Shown: one piece after another, positions 1-11,128 of the stretch
How the letters are laid out: the number at the start of each line of letters is the position of its first letter
Position numbering within the stretch: position 1 is the stretch's first letter
DNA from: Flavobacteriales bacterium
GTDB lineage: Bacteria; Bacteroidota; Bacteroidia; Flavobacteriales; BACL11
Direction of reading: 5' to 3'
Assembly: GCA_002730985.1 (NCBI GenBank)
Contig: PCBP01000015.1
Coordinates: forward strand, 17,677-28,804
Length of the DNA stretch: 11,128 nucleotides
Position numbers and translations under genes: made by a program
Notes under the pieces: generated by a model
Database searches by the model: none
What the model was told of the DNA's origin: nothing
The model's input: only the letters and a program-made list of their open reading frames with translations

Positions 1-3000
1 GTTGGTTCAAATTTTAAAGAATAAAGATCGTTATAATCTCTGTCTCCAATAATATTTACAAGACCCGTTTTATTATCAACAACTTGATTTCCAAATAAAG
101 ATCCTTTTTGAATTGTGTAAACATTCTTATTTGTAAAGTCTACAGTGGTAAGTACTTCTGTAAGTTGAATACTATCCTTTGTGCGACCTCCTGCAATAGA
201 TGTAGGCACGGTTGCTTGTACTAAAAATCTACCATAAGTATTTGTAAGTTCTAATTTACCATCAGTTTTAATATTATTACTTGCATTAGAAAACTGCGTA
301 TTAATATTGTCAATTGTTAGAGCATTATTAGTCTCACATTTAAAGTAATTTACAAGTTCTCTAGTGCTAAATCTAATATATTTTGATCTTTCAGGATTTG
401 TAAGAGTATCGATATCAGAAACAAGATCAAAATCTTTAATAGCATCAACTCTTTTATCTGATGTTAGATCACGTATTATTGATGTTGAATCAGCTGAAGT
501 TGATAATCCAGAAGATGTAGTAGAAGTAATACCAGTATCAGCAAAATTCTTAAGTCCTGAAGTATGAAGTAATCTGTTAACTGGACTTACTAATGCTTGA
601 TATTCAATTGGACTTTGAATAGTGTATGATAAATTTTGATAATAATCATTATCTGGAATAACTTGGAAGTCATCATCCAATTTTCCAGTATTTGTAAACC
701 AACCTTTAGTCTTTTTAGATGAATAGTCAACTTTAAATTCCCCTTTGTTTGGGTATAAAGTATTAATAGTAGCTATAGATCCAGTATAAGTTCCTTTAAT
801 TTTTTCATTTACCTTAAGATCATATTTACCAATTACCTTAATATAATCATTAGAAATTTTATCTAATTTAAGACCAACATCTTGATATTCATTATTAGCA
901 TCTAATACAAATATAGTTTCACCTTCAATAAATGGTGCTGCCTCTTGAGTAAGTGTAAATACAGGAAATTTCTTCTTATTAACAATAGAAGCAAAAGTTT
1001 GATTTGTTTTAGCAAGACCTGGATTATTTGCAATATCTTTTATATTAAATTCAAATTGATAAGGATTAAGACCCAATGCTGATGGTCTGCTTATATAAGT
1101 GTTAGTTACAGTAAAGAATCTATATCCATTATTTGCAGAGTTAAAAGTAGTTCCATATTCATTTTCAAATCCTTCTACAAAAATTTCATCACCTATTTTA
1201 AATGGATCTGTTGTAAATCCAACGATTGGAGTTCCTAAAGTAACTGTTACAATTCCACTTTGAGTATTTGTAACTATAGTATCACCAATTGCTACGGAAG
1301 TAACAGAAACACCATTGGTATTATCAACAGTTAATATTTCAGGAACATTTAATCCTTTTGGTGCAGATATAATATCAACACTTTCAATTGCTTGTGTTGA
1401 TGGACTTACATTTGGTTGTAAGTATCCTGTAGTATTAACTTCTCTAGTAAGTTTATCAATTATGACTAATGTAGGATTAGCAACAAATCCTTGGCCACCA
1501 CTAACAACATCTAAAGTCTTAAGTACGCCATAATCTCTTAAAGAAATTACTGGAGATAATCTTGCTATGGGCAATAAAGTTTTATCTGAAGCATACTCAA
1601 AACCAATGTTATTAATCTTAACATCTTTTATTTGATTAGAAGTAGATGATCTAGGTAATACCTCACCATTTGCTCCTTGAGTAGAAGCAATACTTACAAA
1701 TTTTGGCATTTGTTTGTATCCTACTCCAGCAAAATCTATCTTGATTTCACTTAAAGGTCCTCTTGCTGTTGGTGAATTTGTAGAATATTTAAAAGTATCT
1801 GTAGTTGAAGAATCATAGCGAAGAGATTCTGGTTTTTTATCTAATTGAATAGTAAAGGTAGTGGTTCCAATACCAGCAACTGCATATGAACCTTCATAAT
1901 CACTATTAACATAAGTAACCCTAGATCCATTTTTAACATCAATATCAGATGTACTAATAAATCCAGATTTTTCTAGATTATAGAATAAGTTAAATGGATT
2001 GTCTTTATTATATTTCAATGTAACAGTCGCTGTTACTCCACTACCTACAGTACCATCCCTAGCAATACTAATTACATTTGAACTTCCTATAGATACAAAT
2101 TTATTAACAAAATCATGATCATGATATAAATTAAAGTCATATCCAGATAAAGATGTGTCTGAAACATCAAATACTAGATTATTATCTCTTACGACAGGAA
2201 TTGGTGGATTTATTAAAGACAATTCCTGTGCAGTACCACCAACAGATACTAAAGACTTAACTTGTGGTGGATAACTTATAGCATCATAATAGGTGTCTGC
2301 TAATTGAATCTTATTATCATCAATTCTATAAACAAAATATGATGAAGAAACAGTTAGTCCCTCAATTGCTGAAAAATCAGTAACACCAATACCAGTATTA
2401 TAAAATACCTTACTACCAGTTTCAAAATGATGAGAATTTATAGTTAAAATATCTGTAGATGTATTAACACCAGAAGATGTAAACAATACAGGATTAACCA
2501 ATAACTTTTCAGTTAATGCATTATATTTTAAGGTAATTCCTGCTGAAGTACCAATACCAACTGATTGATCAGGTTTTAATGATAATGTAATAACATCATT
2601 ACCTAAAAGATTATGATTTGTTGAAACTGAAACTGTTGTATCTATTTTTTCAACGGTTCCAGTTACTTGAGTAAAATTAGATTTGAAAATATATTCAAAA
2701 CTATCAGTAGTAGCACTTAAGAAGAATAGTCCACCTGCGAGTGTTCCAGTTGTAGATCTTAAATCTGAAAGTTGAGTTGTTATTCCAATATAATCTTCGG
2801 ATTTATTAATAGCATAAAGATTTTGACTAGTTCCAGAAATTGGTATACTATATCCAGAAACAACAGTTCCATTTGTTGAAACTCCAATATTACCACCACT
2901 AGATGCTTTTGTAAGAGTTATTAATTGACCAGTCTTAAATGGATGCTTTGGTAAGTAAATGCTTTGAGTCGGAACAGAGACTTGACTAGCAGTTTCTCCT

Positions 3001-6000
3001 ACAGAAACATATACTGACGTAGATACTCCAGCAACTCCTCCTAAACCAAAAGACTGCTTGGGATTGAAGTAAACAATATCATCTAACTTAGAATCAAAGT
3101 AAGTAGTTTTTACTGGTAATGTAATTGATCTTGGTATTGTGGTAACTTCAGTAGAAAGTGTATGAGCAATTCCAGTAATACCTCTCTTAACTCTTAAAAT
3201 ATTTCTATCTTCAAACTTATTAAGAACAGATAATGTTTCTGTACCTATACCAATAGTACTACCAACAGAAATTAAATCTGAAGTTCTACCAACGTAAATA
3301 TCAGTTATAATTCCTGCTGTTCCATTTAAAGCAACTTCTTTATAAAGAATTGTATTTTCTGTAGTAATACCTAATACATGATTTCCTGCAAGATTTTGAA
3401 TAGCAGTTGATAATCCAGAAACTATAATAGGAGTATTAAGTGCTAATTCATGAGGTTCTGTAAAGTATGCAGATATTGTATTAGAATCTTTCCATGTAAA
3501 TTGAACACCAGTAAATGAAGTGTATGTAGTTTCAATAAGCGATAACTCTGGACTATCTACAGATTTAACAACAGCAGTTAAACCATTTCCATTAGTTCCT
3601 GTATCATCAAAAACTAAACTATCACCAGCTTTGTAATTATCTCCAACTTTTATAATATCAAGAGATTCTACATCTCCCTGAGAAACTGCTTCTACAACTG
3701 AAGATTGTGTAACAATATCGTCCGATTGTACAAAATATGTGGATGAGAATTTATCAGATGATTTATATGGGAAAGTATTTCTAACTAAATCCGAAGAATT
3801 AAAATCAAATGATTGTGTAATTTCATCTTCTGCATCTAAAACTACAGGAAGTGACCTATAAGTATGTCCAATAAAATATGGGAAAACTGGTTCTAACTTT
3901 CCATTAGAAGCAGTATTAACACCCACAAAATAAGCATATACTCCATCAGGGTATTGTGGTGTTATGCAATATCTACCATTATGCTCATCTAAATCACCAG
4001 AAGCATCATAAGAATAGTCCTCTGCAAAAGTTCCTTCTGCAAAAGTCAATAGTGCTGGTCTATCTTCAACTTTAGAAGAATCTAAACTATAACTTGGTTT
4101 TAAAAGAGTAACATCAGAATTATCAAAAGCATCAGTATATCCATAAGGACCATATATTGGATTACCATCATAAGCCCACCCTATAATAGGCGAGTGACTG
4201 CCTGTAAGATCTCCAAAGTATTCTTTACCTATATCAGTAGAATAACCTACTACAGAGTATCTAAGACCATGTACAGACTGTGTTATAACCTCATCAGTAT
4301 ATCTTGCAGTATATGGTCTTGTTGATTGTATACCACATAATGATAATTTTCTAATATCTGTGTCAAATATAGCATTCTTTCCTGCAGGAATAACTTTTAT
4401 AGAAGTTTTATCCGTACTAAATCCTGCTCCCCCATTAAGTATTACAGTATCAACTATTCTTAAGTAAGTATCCGATCCTACATTTCTATCAATAATAGGT
4501 CTTATCTTAGCACTAAATCCATCACCCTCTACAGATAAAACTGGAGTAGAATAATATTCATTTCCACCAGAATCAATTCTAACTTTTACAACTTTTCCAT
4601 TTTCAATAATAGGAACTAAAGCTGGAGTGATATCCTTATCACTTCTACCAAGACCATTCTTTAATAGTATTTCTGGTCTATTGTGATAGTTTATGAGAGT
4701 AGAAGAACCGTATGATGTTCCCTTTTCATAAAGGAAAGCATCTATTATTTTTCCATCAATAACAGGAGTTAATTTAACAGTCTCAGTTGTTATGCCAGTA
4801 GAATATATAACTTCTGCAGTAATTGTAATATCTGGATAGTTAAATGTCTGATATCCAGATCCCTTAGTCGTAAATTTCGTATAATTATTTTGATCAAAGT
4901 TAGTTGTTACAGTTCCACCTACTCCAGCATTTGCAATCCTAAATGAATTATCATTTAACTTAATTACCTTATATTCAATTGAAGTAGATAGTCCTGTAAT
5001 ATCAGTAGTTGTTCCACCAGAATAAACTATAGATTCTCCATTCTTAAATCCATGATTTTCAAAAGTAATTGTATCAGTATAAGTGGAAATACCAGTAGAC
5101 TTAACATAAATTTTTCTGTTTGCATATTCATCACCTGGATCTACTACAGCAATAGAATTTAAAGTATTTTTAGCATTTTTAAGTGTAAACTTATGAGTTC
5201 CTGTTTTTGCTACATTAGTAAATCCTATTGTATTAATTCCAGCATTATAATCGGATTCATCTTTAAAAAGATAAACGCTACTTATACCAAGAACTTGAGG
5301 ATAGTATACAGAACCATCTTCTAATGTTTCATAATCAGCAGCATCACTTCCTTTAAAGGTACCAATACCCAACGCAGGAAAACCATTTCTATTGTAAACT
5401 AATGGTTGACCACTTTCTAAATTATGATCATTTGAAAATCTGAGAGTTTCATTAACAGTATCAACATCACCACCATTCCCTATAAGTCTACCATCAAATT
5501 CTAATGTTCTGTTCCTTTTTTTAAGTACTGGTCTTAAAATACTATTACCACTATTACCACCAGTAATTTTTACTGAAAGAACATCCTCAATATCAAAATT
5601 TTGAGGGTCAACTAAAATTTCTCTAAGATGTCCAGATATAACTGGACGAACCAAAGCAGTTGTTCCAGATCCTGCTTTAATTTCTAATGAAGGTGGATTA
5701 ACTATATCATATCCTTCACCACCACTAATAACAGAAAACTTCTCTAATGGACCATAGAAAACACTATCAGATGATTTATAGTTTTCAATTTCTACACCAT
5801 TAATCATCATTCCCACAGGACCAGGAAGAGTTTTTGTATCTTCTCCCGTTTTTAAATTATATGATACTGGGAATTTTTTAAGTAATTCTTGAGATTGAAG
5901 TTGTTGGTTATAATGTCTTAATAGAGTAAATGTATGATCTACAAATACTGAACCTGTAATATCCTTAACAGTAAATTCAACACTAGTGCTAGAAGGATTT

Positions 6001-8033
6001 GCTAGGAAAGATGCTGATGAATATAATTTAATCTTATTAAAATCTACATTTTGTACAAAGTATACTCCTTCAGAGAGTCCTTCAATAGCATTTGTACCAT
6101 CAATGGTTCCTGGAGTATAATATACTTCATCACCAGTTATGAAAGGAATATTAGATTCGCTAAAAGATATTATTGAATACTTTCTTGTAGTTGAATTATA
6201 TCCCTGAATTGTATCTCCTACAATCGCACTAGAAATTCCAACTTTAGCAAGACTCTTTGTAATAGCATAAGAAGGTAATCCATTAGTGGCAACGTATAAA
6301 AATTCTTCATTTTCATCATATACATTTTGAATATCTGCAGTTAATGAATTATTTCCATATTTAAAACTAACATCGGACGTAGAATATGCTTTATTCAGTA
6401 CTCTTCGTAGATTATAATCTTTACCATTTTCTGCAACGAATGAATCAGACAACGAAACATCATAACCATCAGCAGATATAGTATTGACCGTAGCGGTCAT
6501 ATCTCCACCAATAAATTCAATAGCCTTTTGTAGAATTAATGGATTACTATTTCTCTCTACAATCTCAACAGTATCACCAACTTTTAGACTTGAAGTATAA
6601 GATCTTGATTTTAATTTAAATTCACCAACATTACCTATAATAGTATCCACTATTTCAGATATAGTAGATGTATTATAAATCCAAGAATTTGCTTGAATTT
6701 CTTTATTGGATAAATCATTACTTTCTATTCTTTCACCAATACTCTTAATCAGTATTGTTTCACCTTCTAAAGATAATCTATTCTGAGAATTTGAAATAAA
6801 ATCAGATAAAACTCCAGTAATTCTTAATTCAATTTTTTCATTTGCAGTATCACCATCCTCATATCCATAGATAGTCTCTTCTGATCTTAAATTATCACCA
6901 TATGCAATTGCAGTTTGAATAGATTGTGTGCCTGTGGTAGAAATTCCTATAAATTGGTTAATTGTTTTATCGGAGTAAACAATATTAGTATTAATACCAG
7001 ATACAACAACTCCAGTAGCACCAAAACCTATTGTAGAATCTACTGTTATGACAGATGCTCCTACACCAACATCACCTATGACTTTTGTTTTTCCTGGAAC
7101 TCCAAAAGTTCCAGTAACAAATTCTTCATCATCATATCCAACAAAAATATCTAAAGCATAATATTCAGCATCACCAGCTCCAGATATACCCGTTACAATC
7201 TCAACCTCAGAGATTGAAGCACTGGTTTGAGTATCAGTAGATTTAAATATAGTTTGACCTGTTAATTTTACAGGATCTCCCGATATTTTTTCAGCAACTA
7301 TTCTTTCACGTCTAATATATTTTGCTGAAGAGGGTTTTATTAAAAATTCTTCTAGGTCAATAATTTTTGGATCAGCACCATATAATACTTGAAAGAGTAT
7401 TCTAAAGGATTCTTCAGTTCCTTTTGCTTCATAAAATGTTCTTGCTTCCTTAATAAAGTTACTAACATCCAAATTAGAAACAAAATCTACATTTTCTAAT
7501 CCAGGAGTTAAAGTAACTTTAAGTTTTTTATAAAATTCTTGTAAAAATAGAGAACTTAAATTAACAACAACAGCATCATTCTCATGTGTCGCAGTACTAG
7601 ATGTAGAGAAAACTAACTCGCCTGGAGCATTTTCAGCATGATATGTAGTTATTCCACTAAATCCACGAACACATCCAGTAAAACTATTGGTTGTTAATCC
7701 AGTATATGTAACAATTTCATCATCAATCTTAAAAAGACCATATTGATCAGGAAATCCTTTAGTGCTATCAACGTTAATAGTAGTAGCATCTGTAGTAATA
7801 CCTGCAGAAAGAGCAGTTCTTCCTGTTATTACCTCTGGAGTTAGGTTATCTAACTTTAAATATTGATCTAAATTATCACTAATATCGACTGGACCACCAC
7901 GATACTCTTGTCCAATATAATATTGCTTTAAAAAATCAGCAGTCTTAGGACTTTCAGATAATATAAACTCTGGAAGTTGATTATCAATTAATTGCTGAAC
8001 TTGTACTCTCTTATCAATACCTGTTGTGATCAT
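1..8033 (-). CDS. Giant modular virion protein with YHYH domain, probable gp7-position baseplate wedge protein (3' partial)
   Basis: One frame stays open from ATG at 8033 to the left edge: at least 2677 residues, with no stop in sight. The start is fixed by the gp6 stop one base upstream; AGAGA five bases before the ATG is a weak ribosome site. Residues 1-240 include a helical stretch (AKGTEESFRILFQVLYG, ~203-219) like tail protein I and the related core of T4 gp7. After that the protein is rich in S, T, G, V, I, N and D and built from repeated modules: GG-x-G-Y/F turns, 'H-x-F-x-T-G' segments, two RG-x-x-G-I-x-x-x-H segments, and a YHYH domain at ~1255-1394. No signal peptide, membrane segment or catalytic enzyme motif was seen. 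T4 gp7 is about 1030 residues, so this would be far larger. A virion structural role is well supported by context; wedge function is inferred. It could instead be a fibre or adhesin fused to a wedge anchor. Confidence 0.85.
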   Translation of the reverse strand, partial: MITTGIDKRVQVQQLIDNQLPEFILSESPKTADFLKQYYIGQEYRGGPVDISDNLDQYLKLDNLTPEVITGRTALSAGITTDATTINVDSTKGFPDQYGLFKIDDEIVTYTGLTTNSFTGCVRGFSGITTYHAENAPGELVFSTSSTATHENDAVVVNLSSLFLQEFYKKLKVTLTPGLENVDFVSNLDVSNFIKEARTFYEAKGTEESFRILFQVLYGADPKIIDLEEFLIKPSSAKYIRRERIVAEKISGDPVKLTGQTIFKSTDTQTSASISEVEIVTGISGAGDAEYYALDIFVGYDDEEFVTGTFGVPGKTKVIGDVGVGASVITVDSTIGFGATGVVVSGINTNIVYSDKTINQFIGISTTGTQSIQTAIAYGDNLRSEETIYGYEDGDTANEKIELRITGVLSDFISNSQNRLSLEGETILIKSIGERIESNDLSNKEIQANSWIYNTSTISEIVDTIIGNVGEFKLKSRSYTSSLKVGDTVEIVERNSNPLILQKAIEFIGGDMTATVNTISADGYDVSLSDSFVAENGKDYNLRRVLNKAYSTSDVSFKYGNNSLTADIQNVYDENEEFLYVATNGLPSYAITKSLAKVGISSAIVGDTIQGYNSTTRKYSIISFSESNIPFITGDEVYYTPGTIDGTNAIEGLSEGVYFVQNVDFNKIKLYSSASFLANPSSTSVEFTVKDITGSVFVDHTFTLLRHYNQQLQSQELLKKFPVSYNLKTGEDTKTLPGPVGMMINGVEIENYKSSDSVFYGPLEKFSVISGGEGYDIVNPPSLEIKAGSGTTALVRPVISGHLREILVDPQNFDIEDVLSVKITGGNSGNSILRPVLKKRNRTLEFDGRLIGNGGDVDTVNETLRFSNDHNLESGQPLVYNRNGFPALGIGTFKGSDAADYETLEDGSVYYPQVLGISSVYLFKDESDYNAGINTIGFTNVAKTGTHKFTLKNAKNTLNSIAVVDPGDEYANRKIYVKSTGISTYTDTITFENHGFKNGESIVYSGGTTTDITGLSTSIEYKVIKLNDNSFRIANAGVGGTVTTNFDQNNYTKFTTKGSGYQTFNYPDITITAEVIYSTGITTETVKLTPVIDGKIIDAFLYEKGTSYGSSTLINYHNRPEILLKNGLGRSDKDITPALVPIIENGKVVKVRIDSGGNEYYSTPVLSVEGDGFSAKIRPIIDRNVGSDTYLRIVDTVILNGGAGFSTDKTSIKVIPAGKNAIFDTDIRKLSLCGIQSTRPYTARYTDEVITQSVHGLRYSVVGYSTDIGKEYFGDLTGSHSPIIGWAYDGNPIYGPYGYTDAFDNSDVTLLKPSYSLDSSKVEDRPALLTFAEGTFAEDYSYDASGDLDEHNGRYCITPQYPDGVYAYFVGVNTASNGKLEPVFPYFIGHTYRSLPVVLDAEDEITQSFDFNSSDLVRNTFPYKSSDKFSSTYFVQSDDIVTQSSVVEAVSQGDVESLDIIKVGDNYKAGDSLVFDDTGTNGNGLTAVVKSVDSPELSLIETTYTSFTGVQFTWKDSNTISAYFTEPHELALNTPIIVSGLSTAIQNLAGNHVLGITTENTILYKEVALNGTAGIITDIYVGRTSDLISVGSTIGIGTETLSVLNKFEDRNILRVKRGITGIAHTLSTEVTTIPRSITLPVKTTYFDSKLDDIVYFNPKQSFGLGGVAGVSTSVYVSVGETASQVSVPTQSIYLPKHPFKTGQLITLTKASSGGNIGVSTNGTVVSGYSIPISGTSQNLYAINKSEDYIGITTQLSDLRSTTGTLAGGLFFLSATTDSFEYIFKSNFTQVTGTVEKIDTTVSVSTNHNLLGNDVITLSLKPDQSVGIGTSAGITLKYNALTEKLLVNPVLFTSSGVNTSTDILTINSHHFETGSKVFYNTGIGVTDFSAIEGLTVSSSYFVYRIDDNKIQLADTYYDAISYPPQVKSLVSVGGTAQELSLINPPIPVVRDNNLVFDVSDTSLSGYDFNLYHDHDFVNKFVSIGSSNVISIARDGTVGSGVTATVTLKYNKDNPFNLFYNLEKSGFISTSDIDVKNGSRVTYVNSDYEGSYAVAGIGTTTFTIQLDKKPESLRYDSSTTDTFKYSTNSPTARGPLSEIKIDFAGVGYKQMPKFVSIASTQGANGEVLPRSSTSNQIKDVKINNIGFEYASDKTLLPIARLSPVISLRDYGVLKTLDVVSGGQGFVANPTLVIIDKLTREVNTTGYLQPNVSPSTQAIESVDIISAPKGLNVPEILTVDNTNGVSVTSVAIGDTIVTNTQSGIVTVTLGTPIVGFTTDPFKIGDEIFVEGFENEYGTTFNSANNGYRFFTVTNTYISRPSALGLNPYQFEFNIKDIANNPGLAKTNQTFASIVNKKKFPVFTLTQEAAPFIEGETIFVLDANNEYQDVGLKLDKISNDYIKVIGKYDLKVNEKIKGTYTGSIATINTLYPNKGEFKVDYSSKKTKGWFTNTGKLDDDFQVIPDNDYYQNLSYTIQSPIEYQALVSPVNRLLHTSGLKNFADTGITSTTSSGLSTSADSTSIIRDLTSDKRVDAIKDFDLVSDIDTLTNPERSKYIRFSTRELVNYFKCETNNALTIDNINTQFSNASNNIKTDGKLELTNTYGRFLVQATVPTSIAGGRTKDSIQLTEVLTTVDFTNKNVYTIQKGSLFGNQVVDNKTGLVNIIGDRDYNDLYSLKFEP
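1485..5723 (-). repeat. Dispersed protein repeat A: GG-x-G-Y/F turn modules in the giant protein
   Basis: A short module built on a glycine turn followed by an aromatic residue recurs in the giant protein. It is usually followed by a Pro-containing strand and then an alternating hydrophobic strand. Clear copies are SGGEGY (770-775), KGSGY (1057-1061), SGGNEYY (1155-1161), NGGAGF (1200-1205), FAGVGY (2101-2106) and SGGQGF (2178-2183). Weaker copies are DPGDEY (965-970), GDNY (1464-1467) and NIGFEY (~2142-2147). Several continue as 'x-x-P-x-(L/V/F)-x-(V/I)'. The copies are too diverged to align at DNA level, so this is a protein-fold repeat and not a recent tandem duplication. The coordinates give the span between first and last copies, not continuous repeat. 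Confidence 0.65.
2289..6143 (-). repeat. Dispersed protein repeat B: 'H-x-F-x-T-G-x-x-(V/I)' beta modules in the giant protein
   Basis: A second module of about 50 residues has an His/Phe-rich loop, a 'T/N-G-x-x-V/I-x-Y' strand, a variable loop, then 'Y-x-V-x-x-x-(D/N)-x-N-x-I/F-x-L/I'. Copies lie around residues 631 (FITGDEVYY then YFVQNVDFNKIKL), 994 (HGFKNGESIVY then YKVIKLNDNSFRI) and 1869 (HHFETGSKVFY then YFVYRIDDNKIQL). Partial copies begin near 1528 (PHELALNTPIIV), 1697 (HPFKTGQLITL) and 1807 (HNLLGNDVITL). The spacing is irregular and other modules, including the YHYH domain, lie between copies. The pattern fits a string of small beta domains, as in elongated phage appendages. The coordinates give the span that contains the copies. 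Confidence 0.6.
3852..4271 (-). other. YHYH domain within the giant protein
   Basis: This covers residues ~1255-1394 of the giant protein. Visible landmarks in order are HGLRYSVVGYS (from 1255), H1280 in GSHSPIIGWAYDG, the tract GWAYDGNPIYGPYGY (1285-1299), HNGRYC (1351-1356), PQYPDGVYAYF (1359-1369) and FPYFIGHTYRS (1384-1394). These match the aromatic, Gly/Pro-rich signature of the YHYH family, which is found in bacterial surface or secreted proteins and in large structural proteins of marine T4-like phages. The biochemical role is not settled, and conserved His and aromatic residues have prompted ideas of ligand or metal binding. Its place in the middle of a beta-repeat chain suggests an inserted binding or stabilising domain. 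Confidence 0.8.
7314..8033 (-). other. N-terminal wedge-like (tail protein I/gp7-type) region of the giant protein
   Basis: This covers residues 1-240. It opens with a charged, mostly helical segment containing QLIDNQLPEFILSESP and an aromatic QYY run. A small beta module follows at ~92-130 (KGFPDQYGLFKIDDEI, then CVRGFSGITTYHA). A helical segment at ~150-235 then carries FIKEARTFYEAKGTEES and ILFQVLYGADPKIIDLEEF. In P2-like phages the 'KGTE-S-x-R-x-L-F' pattern is typical of tail protein I, and T4 gp7 has a related core that pairs with gp6. With gp25 and gp6 encoded directly upstream, I infer that this part anchors the giant protein in the baseplate wedge. The assignment rests on motif recognition only. 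Confidence 0.5.
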
Positions 8034-8034
8034 A

Positions 8035-9960
8035 TTATTCTCTTGTTAATTCTCCATTGTTATAACTTGATGTAACATTATATCCAAGACCAGATATTTG
8101 TTCGCCAGATGTAATTGTATCCTTAACCATATTTATCGAACTAGTTGCAATGCCAAATTTCAGATATAAATCCTGAAGACCTATAACATCGTTAGATTCA
8201 GGAAATGCCTGAACTTCAATAATATTATTTTCTTTTTCAGTAGATATTATATTAATAGTAGTAAGATTTATTTCACCTTTTACATAATCTACTGTACCTG
8301 CATTCGCTACAATCACTATTTTTGATAGATCTGCTATATCTTCCCTTACAATTTCAATTGTTCCTGTTTTTTTGTCTGAATTTGGAACATCTGTAAGATA
8401 AACTGTGTCAGTTAAACCCAAAACCTTAAATCCAGTGCTTTTTATGTTTAATCCGCCTGGTTTTACATTAAATTGGTTACCAAAACATAATTCATACTGT
8501 GCAAATTGATTTACAAGAGCATTTAAGTTTCTTCTCATCCGTATTCTTGTAATATTGGATGTTATTGCATCACTAATATCGTCAATAACGGTCAAAACCT
8601 TACTATACTTAAATCTTCCTCCAAATTTGTTAAGATCAATGGAATTTGAGTAAGTTGTAAGTCCCTGAATGACTTCTGATCTCAAACCATCAACACTTTC
8701 AACCTTAGAAGAGTTATAATAGATGTATGATTCTGCCTCAATATACAAAACTTTCAAATCTAGGATTTTTTGGTTAATTCCAGTCAAAGAATATTGCTTC
8801 AAATCGGAAAGTATCTGATTTTTATCAAAATCGGACACAAAATCTCCATTTTTTGGTTTAATTGTAAGAAAAACACTTCCAAATTCAGGTGGATCCATCT
8901 CTTCACCACCAACTACAGAAACACTTTCAGTATTTGGGTAAATTTGTTGAATAATTGTCTCATAATCTCTTGATGTAACTGCTCTGTACTGTGCCGAATA
9001 CAGTCTAGGAGCATAGTATTTGATAGAATCAAGGGATTCTATATCTCCACCGTTACTTGCACGTGAAACCGTGTTTACTGAGGGTGCCGAAGTAGGAGAA
9101 ATGCTATTATTATTGGCATCTGCTATACTTCCAGAGAAAGTAAAGTTACTTGGACCATCTCCTTCTTTACCATCAGTAATAATATACTGTACAGTGACCT
9201 TTGCTTCGTTTTCTAACTTCTTACCAAAGATACCATCACCAAAAAGTAGTTCATATCTCTCATCTTGTACCTCTTGTATCAAGTATATCTCTGAATTTTT
9301 GTCAATATTTAAAATATTATCAACTTTGTTATACAAAACACCCTTTCCTGTACGATATACACCAGATGAAATAGGTGTATTGATGTATACAACGATTGTA
9401 GAGGTATCAATATAGGAATTATCTAATATAAACCTTTGATCAATTGACCCATCAACAATAAATTCCTTTGAAAGATAGGTTCCTTGGTATACTGTAATTG
9501 GATTAACACTAGTTCCAAAGTTAGCAGCATTGGATACAAGGGATGCTTCTATATCATCAGGTATAGAAAAACTATATGTACTATTTGATTGGTTTCCAGT
9601 GCAGACTAGACCTGCTTTTAAGTAGATTGCTTGAGTATCTTTATCAGATGATAGATCAGTTGTTATAGGAAAGTTAACAGATGCTTTAGCAGCAGTCCTA
9701 GAACGAGGTACATAACCCACATTACGTGCTAAAGAAACAACATTTTCCCTAACAGTAGCAGAATCCAAGAAGGATTCGTTAATAACCATGTTAGAGTTAA
9801 TGGCAGTAATGTAAGTATTGTATGCTAACGTATCAATTAAGACCGAAAAGTTAGAACCTTCAAAGTCAAATCCCGTAAATTCGGAATTCGCACGAAGATA
9901 ACTCTTAATTGATTCTTTTATCTGATCGAAATCAAGATTTGTAAACTTAGTAAAAGGCAT
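8035..9960 (-). CDS. 6: Baseplate wedge subunit gp6 (baseplate J family)
   Basis: This is a complete 641-residue protein, close to T4 gp6 (about 660). Together with gp7 and gp25, gp6 forms the wedge core that builds the inner baseplate ring and transmits the sheath-contraction signal. The N-terminus (MPFTKFTNLDFDQIKESIK, then LIDTLAYNTYITAINSNM) is typical of gp6 from marine T4-like phages. The baseplate J core is visible at ~236-275: ELLFGDGIFGKKLENEAKV, then DGKEGDGPSNF. It is followed by NGGDIESLDSIKYYAPRL (303-320) and AVTSRDYETIIQQIYP (327-342), the conserved gpJ-like segment. No membrane segment is seen. The start lies one base after the gp25 stop, with no good Shine-Dalgarno sequence, which suggests translational coupling. 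The stop lies one base before the giant gene. Confidence 0.93.
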   Translation of the reverse strand: MPFTKFTNLDFDQIKESIKSYLRANSEFTGFDFEGSNFSVLIDTLAYNTYITAINSNMVINESFLDSATVRENVVSLARNVGYVPRSRTAAKASVNFPITTDLSSDKDTQAIYLKAGLVCTGNQSNSTYSFSIPDDIEASLVSNAANFGTSVNPITVYQGTYLSKEFIVDGSIDQRFILDNSYIDTSTIVVYINTPISSGVYRTGKGVLYNKVDNILNIDKNSEIYLIQEVQDERYELLFGDGIFGKKLENEAKVTVQYIITDGKEGDGPSNFTFSGSIADANNNSISPTSAPSVNTVSRASNGGDIESLDSIKYYAPRLYSAQYRAVTSRDYETIIQQIYPNTESVSVVGGEEMDPPEFGSVFLTIKPKNGDFVSDFDKNQILSDLKQYSLTGINQKILDLKVLYIEAESYIYYNSSKVESVDGLRSEVIQGLTTYSNSIDLNKFGGRFKYSKVLTVIDDISDAITSNITRIRMRRNLNALVNQFAQYELCFGNQFNVKPGGLNIKSTGFKVLGLTDTVYLTDVPNSDKKTGTIEIVREDIADLSKIVIVANAGTVDYVKGEINLTTINIISTEKENNIIEVQAFPESNDVIGLQDLYLKFGIATSSINMVKDTITSGEQISGLGYNVTSSYNNGELTRE

Positions 9961-9961
9961 A

Positions 9962-10360
9962 TTATCTAGTGGCTTCTAATATGTATTGAAATGCTTGAGA
10001 AGGAAACTGCTGTCCGATGATATCGAAGTATATATTAACCTCAAATTCGTTTTGATCTGGTCTAGGAAACACTTCTACATTTAAATTTTCAACTCTAGGT
10101 TCAAAATTTTCTATTGTAGTTTGTATTTGTTTCTCTATAACTGATGCTGTACCAAAATCAACGAAGTCAAAAAGACTGCTCCTTATATCAGTACCTAAGA
10201 TAGAGTTAAAAAACCTTTCTCCAGGAATAGTCTGAACTAAGTTCCTTACAGATTTCTTAATTGCGTTCTCATTCTTAATAACTGTAAGGTCATTTGTGAC
10301 GGGATGAGGGTTAAAAGATAGACTAATATCCTTAAATGCTCTGGATATCCTCGTTTTCAT
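9962..10360 (-). CDS. 25: Baseplate wedge subunit gp25 (gpW/gp25 family)
   Basis: This complete 132-residue protein matches T4 gp25 in size. gp25 joins the gp6-gp7 wedge core and provides the contact from which the tail sheath starts to polymerise. Visible landmarks are FNPHPVTNDLTVIKNENAIK (16-35), SVRNLVQTIPGERFFNSILG (37-56), SSLFDF (61-66) and the EPRV motif (87-90) that is a hallmark of this family. The C-terminus (VNIYFDIIGQQFP, 108-120) is the usual beta strand before the end. The start chosen is the ATG at 10360, 25 bases downstream of the late promoter. An alternative ATG at 10364 is in another frame. No strong Shine-Dalgarno sequence is seen. It is the first gene of the unit gp25-gp6-giant gene. 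Confidence 0.95.
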   Translation of the reverse strand: MKTRISRAFKDISLSFNPHPVTNDLTVIKNENAIKKSVRNLVQTIPGERFFNSILGTDIRSSLFDFVDFGTASVIEKQIQTTIENFEPRVENLNVEVFPRPDQNEFEVNIYFDIIGQQFPSQAFQYILEATR

Positions 10361-10606: not shown

Positions 10607-10777
10607 TTACTCCTTTAACATTTCATGTCTTAGATCAGTCGGATGAGGTTCTCCAGTTTCGTAAAACTTTTGTGATAACTCATCCATTTTCTCAAAGAAC
10701 TCATCTTCTGTAAGGTTCTCAAAGATTAAAGAGTCCTTACAGTAGATATTGTACTTATATGACTCTTGATTTTTCAT
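10607..10777 (-). CDS. Small acidic protein (56 aa), function unknown
   Basis: The frame MKNQESYKYNIYCKDSLIF to DLRHEMLKE ends in TAA. It has about 14 Asp/Glu against 7 Lys/Arg, so it is acidic. The middle (NLTEDEFFEKMDELSQKFYE, 21-40) looks like an amphipathic helix pair, and a Pro/His turn follows (GEPHPTDL). No domain is recognised. The ATG lies inside the last codons of the glycosyltransferase-like gene, with a 23-base overlap in another frame. A short AGGA just before the ATG is a weak ribosome site. Six bases separate its stop from the next ATG, and its last codons contain the ribosome site for that gene. The tight overlaps support a real coding gene in a compact phage operon. Confidence 0.78.
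   Translation of the reverse strand: MKNQESYKYNIYCKDSLIFENLTEDEFFEKMDELSQKFYETGEPHPTDLRHEMLKE
10610..10614 (-). promoter_or_regulatory. Shine-Dalgarno site of the 48-aa gene
   Basis: AGGAG on the minus strand lies nine bases upstream of the ATG at 10600. It sits within the last codons of the 56-aa gene (AAG GAG TAA), so ribosomes finishing that gene pass over it. It fixes the start of the 48-aa frame and stands out because the baseplate genes have no comparable site. Confidence 0.75.
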
Positions 10778-11128
10778 GTCCTACACGTATCCGAGGGTCA
10801 CACCAGATTTCAAAACCTGCTTCCTTCGCATCAAGACAGAAAGAAACGTCCTCACCGCACATATCCTGCACGTCTCCTGATTCAAAAACCTGCATCTTGG
10901 GTGCGAACCAAGGATAAGTCATTTCCTCATGCTCGAAGACTCCTTTCTTAATCAATAACCAACCGAAACCTGTATAGTCTACTGTGAAAGGTTTGCGACG
11001 TTTGGATATACTTTCGATAGTTTCGTGATTCATCACTCCACCATTACTACGAAAATCATCCTCTTCTAACCAATGTGCTACAGAAGTAGTCTTACCATCT
11101 TCGGTACAATACCATCCTGCTGCAATGT
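10755..11128 (-). CDS. Glycosyltransferase-like protein, C-terminal part (5' partial)
   Basis: The frame enters from the right edge already open and ends in TAA at 10755, giving 123 visible residues. A GTG at 11036 is an internal codon, because the same frame continues upstream to the edge with coherent sequence (AAGWYCTEDGKTTSVAHWLE). Visible segments are VDYTGFGWLLIKKGVFE, then YPWFAPKM, then GEDVSFCLDAKEAGFEIWCD, and a final RVGHEK. The order 'E-D-x-x-F-C-x-x-A-x-x-A-G-F, then D-P, then V-x-H' is the usual C-terminal half of GT-A fold transferases related to family 2. There the acidic pair and the His lie at the active site. The DxD and nucleotide-sugar half would lie outside the window. 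Substrate cannot be inferred. Phage versions may modify virion proteins, DNA or host surface sugars. Confidence 0.72.
   Translation of the reverse strand, partial: IAAGWYCTEDGKTTSVAHWLEEDDFRSNGGVMNHETIESISKRRKPFTVDYTGFGWLLIKKGVFEHEEMTYPWFAPKMQVFESGDVQDMCGEDVSFCLDAKEAGFEIWCDPRIRVGHEKSRVI

Follow-up and report, generated by a model that had tools for sequence, protein, structure and literature searches.

In T4, each sixth of the baseplate contains one wedge made of two gp6 chains and one gp7 chain. A wedge core of two gp6-type chains and one gp7-type chain is described for both T4 and Vibrio phage XM1 in the available text of the XM1 study (PMC10457771), which calls XM1 gp17, a protein of only 242 aa, the T4 gp7 orthologue and reports that a loop in its domain I and its C-terminal tail hold the tail spikes. 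According to the portion of Sullivan et al. (2010, PMC3037559) available here, gp7 has diverged among T4-like phages to the point of being spread over several gene clusters. The S-SM1 proteome published there may include gp7. Purified virions of S-CREM2 yielded 91 unique peptides of gp122 (27.2% coverage; PMC10665884), a protein that stands at the gp7 place. A contrary statement appears in the available part of PMC7029224, where T4 gp7 is said to be absent from pelagi- and cyanomyophages and apparently substituted by VrlC.

Giant gp7 proteins are already known in cyanophages, where they are annotated as baseplate wedge subunits or initiators. The protein PSSM2_111 of P-SSM2 is a gp7 of 5,195 aa, and the baseplate wedge initiator of S-SRM01 has 3,895 aa; both genes occupy the same place after gp6 as the gene described here, and the proteins show 39.9% and 43.3% similarity, respectively, to the part of our protein that lies in the window. 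Because these annotations and PHROG 2885 cover it, ours does not represent a new type of gene, and what is new here is the reading of its core as bipartite and the series of sizes into which it falls. In our view this is probably the gp7 orthologue of a T4-like, Kyanoviridae-type marine phage that has not been cultured; its wedge core would lie in two segments, and the rest of the chain would most likely form peripheral arms.

The open frame and its neighbours

The window, by which we mean the whole stretch of 11,128 nucleotides that was analysed, forms the right-hand end of a contig of 28,804 bases, which comes from an assembly that is 67.9% complete. From an ATG at position 8033 on the minus strand, a frame runs for 2,677 codons to the left window edge with 0 stops, which at the base composition of the window would have a chance probability of about 10^-99, and a single base (8034) separates its ATG from the TAA stop of gp6, which ends at 8035. 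The open frame of at least 2,677 codons directly after gp6 that was noticed in a sequence-only reading of this DNA is thus real. Followed leftward, as that reading had proposed, the frame runs to contig position 12186, for a total of 4,507 aa, and since it continues outside the window, the early estimate of at least 2.5 times the size of T4 gp7 (1,032 aa) becomes 4.4 times. Six residues just beyond the left window edge are ambiguous. The contig shows nine short ambiguous stretches within the gp7 frame (L084:17531-17676), the last of them directly at the window edge. An uninterrupted copy in IMG/VR locus L100, also 4,507 aa long and 98.5% identical over the window part, was used as a stand-in for the portion of gp7 outside the window. 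The features of the window are as follows.

3..8033, minus strand: gp7-type baseplate wedge protein, of whose 4507 residues the window holds 1-2677, the rest lying further to the left
7854..8033, minus strand: N-terminal helical segment (LPEF...FLKQYY), residues 1-60, covered by profile N
7545..7829, minus strand: small beta module at residues 69-163, lying after the N-terminal helices and before segment 1
7233..7469, minus strand: wedge-core segment 1 ("FYxxKGT" helices), residues 189-267, by matches to T4 gp7, Ps15, pf16 and HTVC008M
714..7232, minus strand: inserted chain, residues 268-2440, with an all-beta prediction that covers 241-1420 only
3915..4199, minus strand: YHYH domain (PF14240), residues 1279-1373, Pfam E 1.8e-25
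519..713, minus strand: candidate wedge-core segment 2 ("DNDYYQxxSY...HTxG"), residues 2441-2505, by matches to Ps15, pf16, HTVC008M, S-CREM2 and S-PM2
3..518, minus strand: first part (residues 2506-2677) of the C-terminal extension, which runs to 4507 outside the window
8035..9960, minus strand: gp6, baseplate wedge protein (PF21379, E 9e-17; PHROG 219, E 1.7e-193)
9962..10360, minus strand: gp25, baseplate wedge subunit (PF04965, E 4.2e-12)

The gene order on the contig is 25-6-7-8-VrlC. A separate gp8 gene (PF09215, E 1.8e-10) follows the giant gene and is itself followed by a 2,407-aa DUF4815/VrlC protein and then by smaller ORFs, which places the giant directly between gp6 and gp8, at the T4-type gp7 place, as had been suggested from its position after gp6. 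At the other end of the window, positions 10755-11126 hold a partial ORF at the contig end with a match to PHROG 1574 (unknown function) and a weak glycosyltransferase match.

A tblastn search of the window part of the protein against a collection of phages returned 466 records, 93 of which covered 80% or more of the query at a single place and all of which were below 60% identity. By name these were Synechococcus phages (374), "Cyanophage" (61), Prochlorococcus phages (24), "Marine" (6), and one Actinomycetia phage, the last with a match limited to 53 residues near the YHYH domain. Where the gene could be read whole, its length in the undivided giants is about 12-16 kb.

Comparison with T4 gp7

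A profile of residues 1-330, built from 41 sequences and compared with every PDB sequence at a limit of E 10, found only two matches, both to residues 727-758/759 of T4-type gp7 (E 1.6e-4 and 3.2e-4). Aligned by hhalign, residues 193-267 matched T4 gp7 727-791 with an E of 1.8e-6, and a control with T4 gp6 gave 0.43; hhalign E-values here refer to a single comparison each. Judged by these alignments, the N-terminal part of the giant protein is a gp7 homologue. Both T4 gp7 and P2 gpI had been put forward as possible counterparts of this region. The first was borne out by sequence; for the second, which served as a further control, hhalign showed no match to the single P2 gpI sequence compared (E 0.8).

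Family searches placed the protein in PHROG 2885, "baseplate wedge subunit", with an E of 0 and 2394 bits over residues 2-2646, and the C-terminal part matches this family too. The Pfam family PF23786, Baseplate_wedge, reached 14.2 bits on the window protein and 17.6 bits on residues 1-330, against a cut-off of 27, and was matched at E <= 1 by 41/41 members of A1. Profile N, for the N-terminal helical segment, matched the gp7-position proteins of S-PM2, Ps15, pf16, HTVC008M, and S-CREM2 (E 0.0036 in the last), with no match in T4. A structural model of the N-terminal part had low confidence (pLDDT 63.4, pTM 0.40), and with this low-confidence model Foldseek returned no PDB match at E <= 0.001.

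The giant resembles the solved T4 gp7 in gene order, in segment 1, and weakly in segment 2, but it differs in layout: about 725 residues precede the segment 1 match in T4 versus about 190 here, and about 107 residues separate the two matches in T4 versus about 2,180 here. In support of the gp7 reading, a search of nine complete phage genomes, one of them T4, placed the core segment in a single ORF in each of the nine. Four further profile matches occurred in those genomes, three in the same ORF and one in VrlC, with which a beta module is shared.

The candidate second core segment and the size series

The 284 positions of PF23786 matched in two different places. In the window protein, B23, P-SSM2, and S-SRM01, sub-threshold matches lay at the KGT region of the N-terminus, whereas the last ~50 positions matched, also below threshold, midway along S-PM2 p084 and close to the end of S-CREM2 gp122. 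The family stayed below its cut-off in 7/7 phage records searched, and nothing in T4 or P2 matched it. This split suggested a small wedge protein interrupted by an insert. A tblastn search with residues 2380-2560 at E <= 10 led to phages of Stenotrophomonas (E 2) and Pseudomonas (E 0.3), values that alone are at chance level.

Stenotrophomonas phage Ps15 gp091 (503 aa) and Pseudomonas phage pf16 gp212 (523 aa) stand at the gp7 place, directly after gp6, without the giant insert, and both exceed the PF23786 cut-off. Segment 1 was found in Ps15 at residues 83-139 (E 1.3e-9) and in pf16 at 81-157 (E 9.2e-10), followed in each protein by segment 2, at 377-441 (E 6.3e-8) and 368-422 (E 2.5e-8), respectively. 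The 1016-aa gp055 of HTVC008M, at the gp7 place, also has segment 1 (E 1.1e-13) and segment 2 (709-813, E 2.1e-6). In T4 gp7 the second match, at 865-890, is weak (E 0.02, hhalign probability 2.3%); one of 1,000 shuffled T4 sequences outscored the real one. Both segments occur in order in 28/28 of the complete IMG/VR relatives taken, as well as in P-SSM2, S-SRM01, S-CAM9, B23, S-PM2, S-CREM2, HTVC008M, Ps15, and pf16, and on nine control proteins (gp6, gp8, gp10, VrlC) the two profiles gave a best E of 1.5.

On this sequence evidence the wedge core looks bipartite, with residues 193-267 as one half and 2441-2505 as the other. The earlier idea that only the first ~240 residues resemble a wedge core does not survive the second segment, which is clear in Ps15 and pf16, and from its position the long chain appears to be inserted within the wedge protein instead of hung on its end. 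The spread of gp7 over several gene clusters described in the available text of PMC3037559 fits these results.

These results bear on the alternative that the giant is a virion adhesin or fibre merely placed after gp6, with VrlC taking the gp7 wedge role, which we regard as very improbable. It has the printed statement of VrlC substitution behind it (PMC7029224, in the part available), along with the beta modules of the modelled part, the YHYH domain, and a VrlC-type gene two genes downstream in the source contig, P-SSM2, and S-SRM01. Yet segment 1 met nothing in the PDB except the two T4-type gp7 sequences, segments 1 and 2 were not found in any of the three VrlC-type proteins searched (source contig, HTVC008M, and P-SSM2; best E 1.5), and the N-terminal profile meets VrlC only in the shared beta module. 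Moreover, HTVC008M, the reference pelagimyophage in the available text of PMC7029224, carries both segments in gp055, and Ps15 encodes a compact gp7 and VrlC together.

Several of the records compared carry annotations of their own. The compact gp7 of Ps15 is followed by an annotated wedge subunit with a weak match to the gp8 family PF09215 (23.9/25 bits) and then by VrlC, and the gene after pf16 gp212 is annotated as a tail spike, not gp8. The record for gp212 itself (L174:4936-6507) reads "hypothetical protein", although it looks like a compact 523-aa gp7. HTVC008M gp055 (L175:33435-36485), annotated "head closure Hc2", lies between two annotated wedge genes and, from its sequence, is probably misnamed.

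Returning to the bipartite core, the spacing between its segments, measured from where match 1 stops to where match 2 begins (the boundaries of the matches vary somewhat, and the first match in T4 is shorter), increases from 107 residues in T4, where the second match is weak, to 227 in pf16, 247 in Ps15, 488 in HTVC008M, 1,556 in S-PM2, 1,630 in S-CREM2, and 2,104-2,195 in 32/32 giants. The giants comprise P-SSM2, S-SRM01, S-CAM9, B23, and 28 IMG/VR loci chosen for a complete ORF >3,000 aa from 151 with an N-terminal match, most of which are cut by contig or locus ends. Several of the 28 appear to be near-copies (L135/L097, L106/L107, L111/L128), so the number of independent cases is below 28, and the near-constant spacing among giants is partly a product of selection because they were picked as long and complete. 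Within these bounds the series shows what reads as stepwise growth of the insert within the family, from about 100 to about 2,200 residues.

The part after segment 2 measures 15 residues in S-CREM2, 65 and 104 in the compact proteins, 205 in HTVC008M, 1,179 in S-PM2, and 1,427-2,669 in 31 undivided giants. The 1937-aa gp122 of S-CREM2 shares both segments and the YHYH domain and is homologous to the giant in its N-terminus, YHYH region, and C-terminus, with a shorter insert; the virion peptides cited above thus belong to a shorter homologue, the only one for which presence in virions is shown. In phage B23 (L163:7998-19777) gp7 is divided into two ORFs, through either a gene split or a sequence error: 433 residues follow segment 2, and the separate ORF gp258 (1,081 aa), which overlaps by 4 bases, comes next.

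Such cases invite the suggestion that the chain is cut after synthesis, or that there are two working proteins, with the part past ~2,510 an independent tail component. The end of S-CREM2 gp122 so soon after segment 2 and the separate ORF in B23 both point that way. We nevertheless think it unlikely, given the single frame in 28/28 IMG/VR relatives (which were chosen as complete and >3,000 aa) and in P-SSM2, S-SRM01, and S-CAM9, and because the B23 split could be a sequencing error or a recent mutation.

Insert, C-terminal extension and putative arms

Between the two core segments of the source protein lie about 2,180 residues, and an extension of about 2,000 follows segment 2. Residues 241-1420 were modelled by AlphaFold2 as nearly all strand (pLDDT 84.3, pTM 0.72), and the beta chain holds like modules twice. 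A description of everything past the first ~240 residues as a modular beta chain is accordingly supported by the model for 241-1420 and is at odds with the putative core segment at 2441-2505. The C-terminal part differs in length between the source gp7 and those of P-SSM2 and S-SRM01, and when 30 complete sequences were aligned, variation was greatest in residues 3401-3900 (gap fraction 0.57-0.88), a stretch that holds four "YPR" repeats and matches the tail-fibre family phrog_5342 (E 9.7e-38). In the L100 copy the repeats, of the type "FTC...YPR", occupy residues 3465-3870, in the most length-variable part; ORFs that carry a tail-fibre annotation at other places in cyanophage genomes match this region as well.

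The homology, segment order, spacing, and beta prediction come from the sequences themselves; as a PDB sequence search found no solved relative of the whole giant gp7, we infer joint folding of the segments, six copies, outward arms, and receptor contact by analogy with T4 and XM1. By that analogy, the two gp7 segments would fold jointly with two copies of gp6 into a (gp6)2-gp7 wedge, one for each sixth of the baseplate. The chain of ~2,180 residues between the segments would leave this wedge and come back to it, and the C-terminal extension of ~2,000 residues would leave it a second time. Together the chain and the extension would most likely make up six large arms at the periphery, which would either bear receptor-contacting modules or serve as such modules themselves; the YHYH domain and the tail-fibre-like repeats are candidates for these. 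Like XM1 gp17, the giant carries extra sequence both within its core and beyond it, and it may have grown into arms at places that would be comparable to those in XM1.

Whether arms of this kind would touch the host is a separate question. They could be purely structural, forming a wide baseplate skirt or a second layer without receptor contact, and the near-constant length of the insert in the giants taken (2,104-2,195) is what one would expect from a scaffold; two-layer baseplates have also been proposed for VrlC phages in the available text of PMC7029224. That the C-terminal part varies as widely as it does across the 31 undivided giants and matches a tail-fibre family argues against this, as does the listing of YHYH domains among host-recognition domains in the same source, and we consider a purely structural role possible but somewhat doubtful. 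A case a little short of an even chance can be made for the wedge initiator as a host-contact scaffold, in which a length-fixed beta loop of ~2,180 residues and a variable adhesin-like tail would make six arms that do the work of the T4 peripheral proteins.

In T4 the genes for gp9, gp10, and gp11 come after gp8. The sequence-only reading had raised the possibility that one polypeptide takes on jobs that T4 gives to several, and in profile searches that matched T4 the gp9/10 and gp11 families were not detected in 8/8 complete non-T4 phage genomes. Because Ps15 and pf16, with compact gp7 proteins, are among the eight, the loss is not tied to giant gp7, and a giant arm need not be what replaces gp9-11.

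With the bipartite reading, what had been a vague "huge structural protein" gains a layout open to testing, which sets out the residues that would belong to the wedge and those that would leave it. The presence of both segments in ORFs at the gp7 position argues against the absence of gp7 stated in the available part of PMC7029224, and the series from compact to giant gp7 proteins offers material on how core assembly proteins gain host-contact modules.
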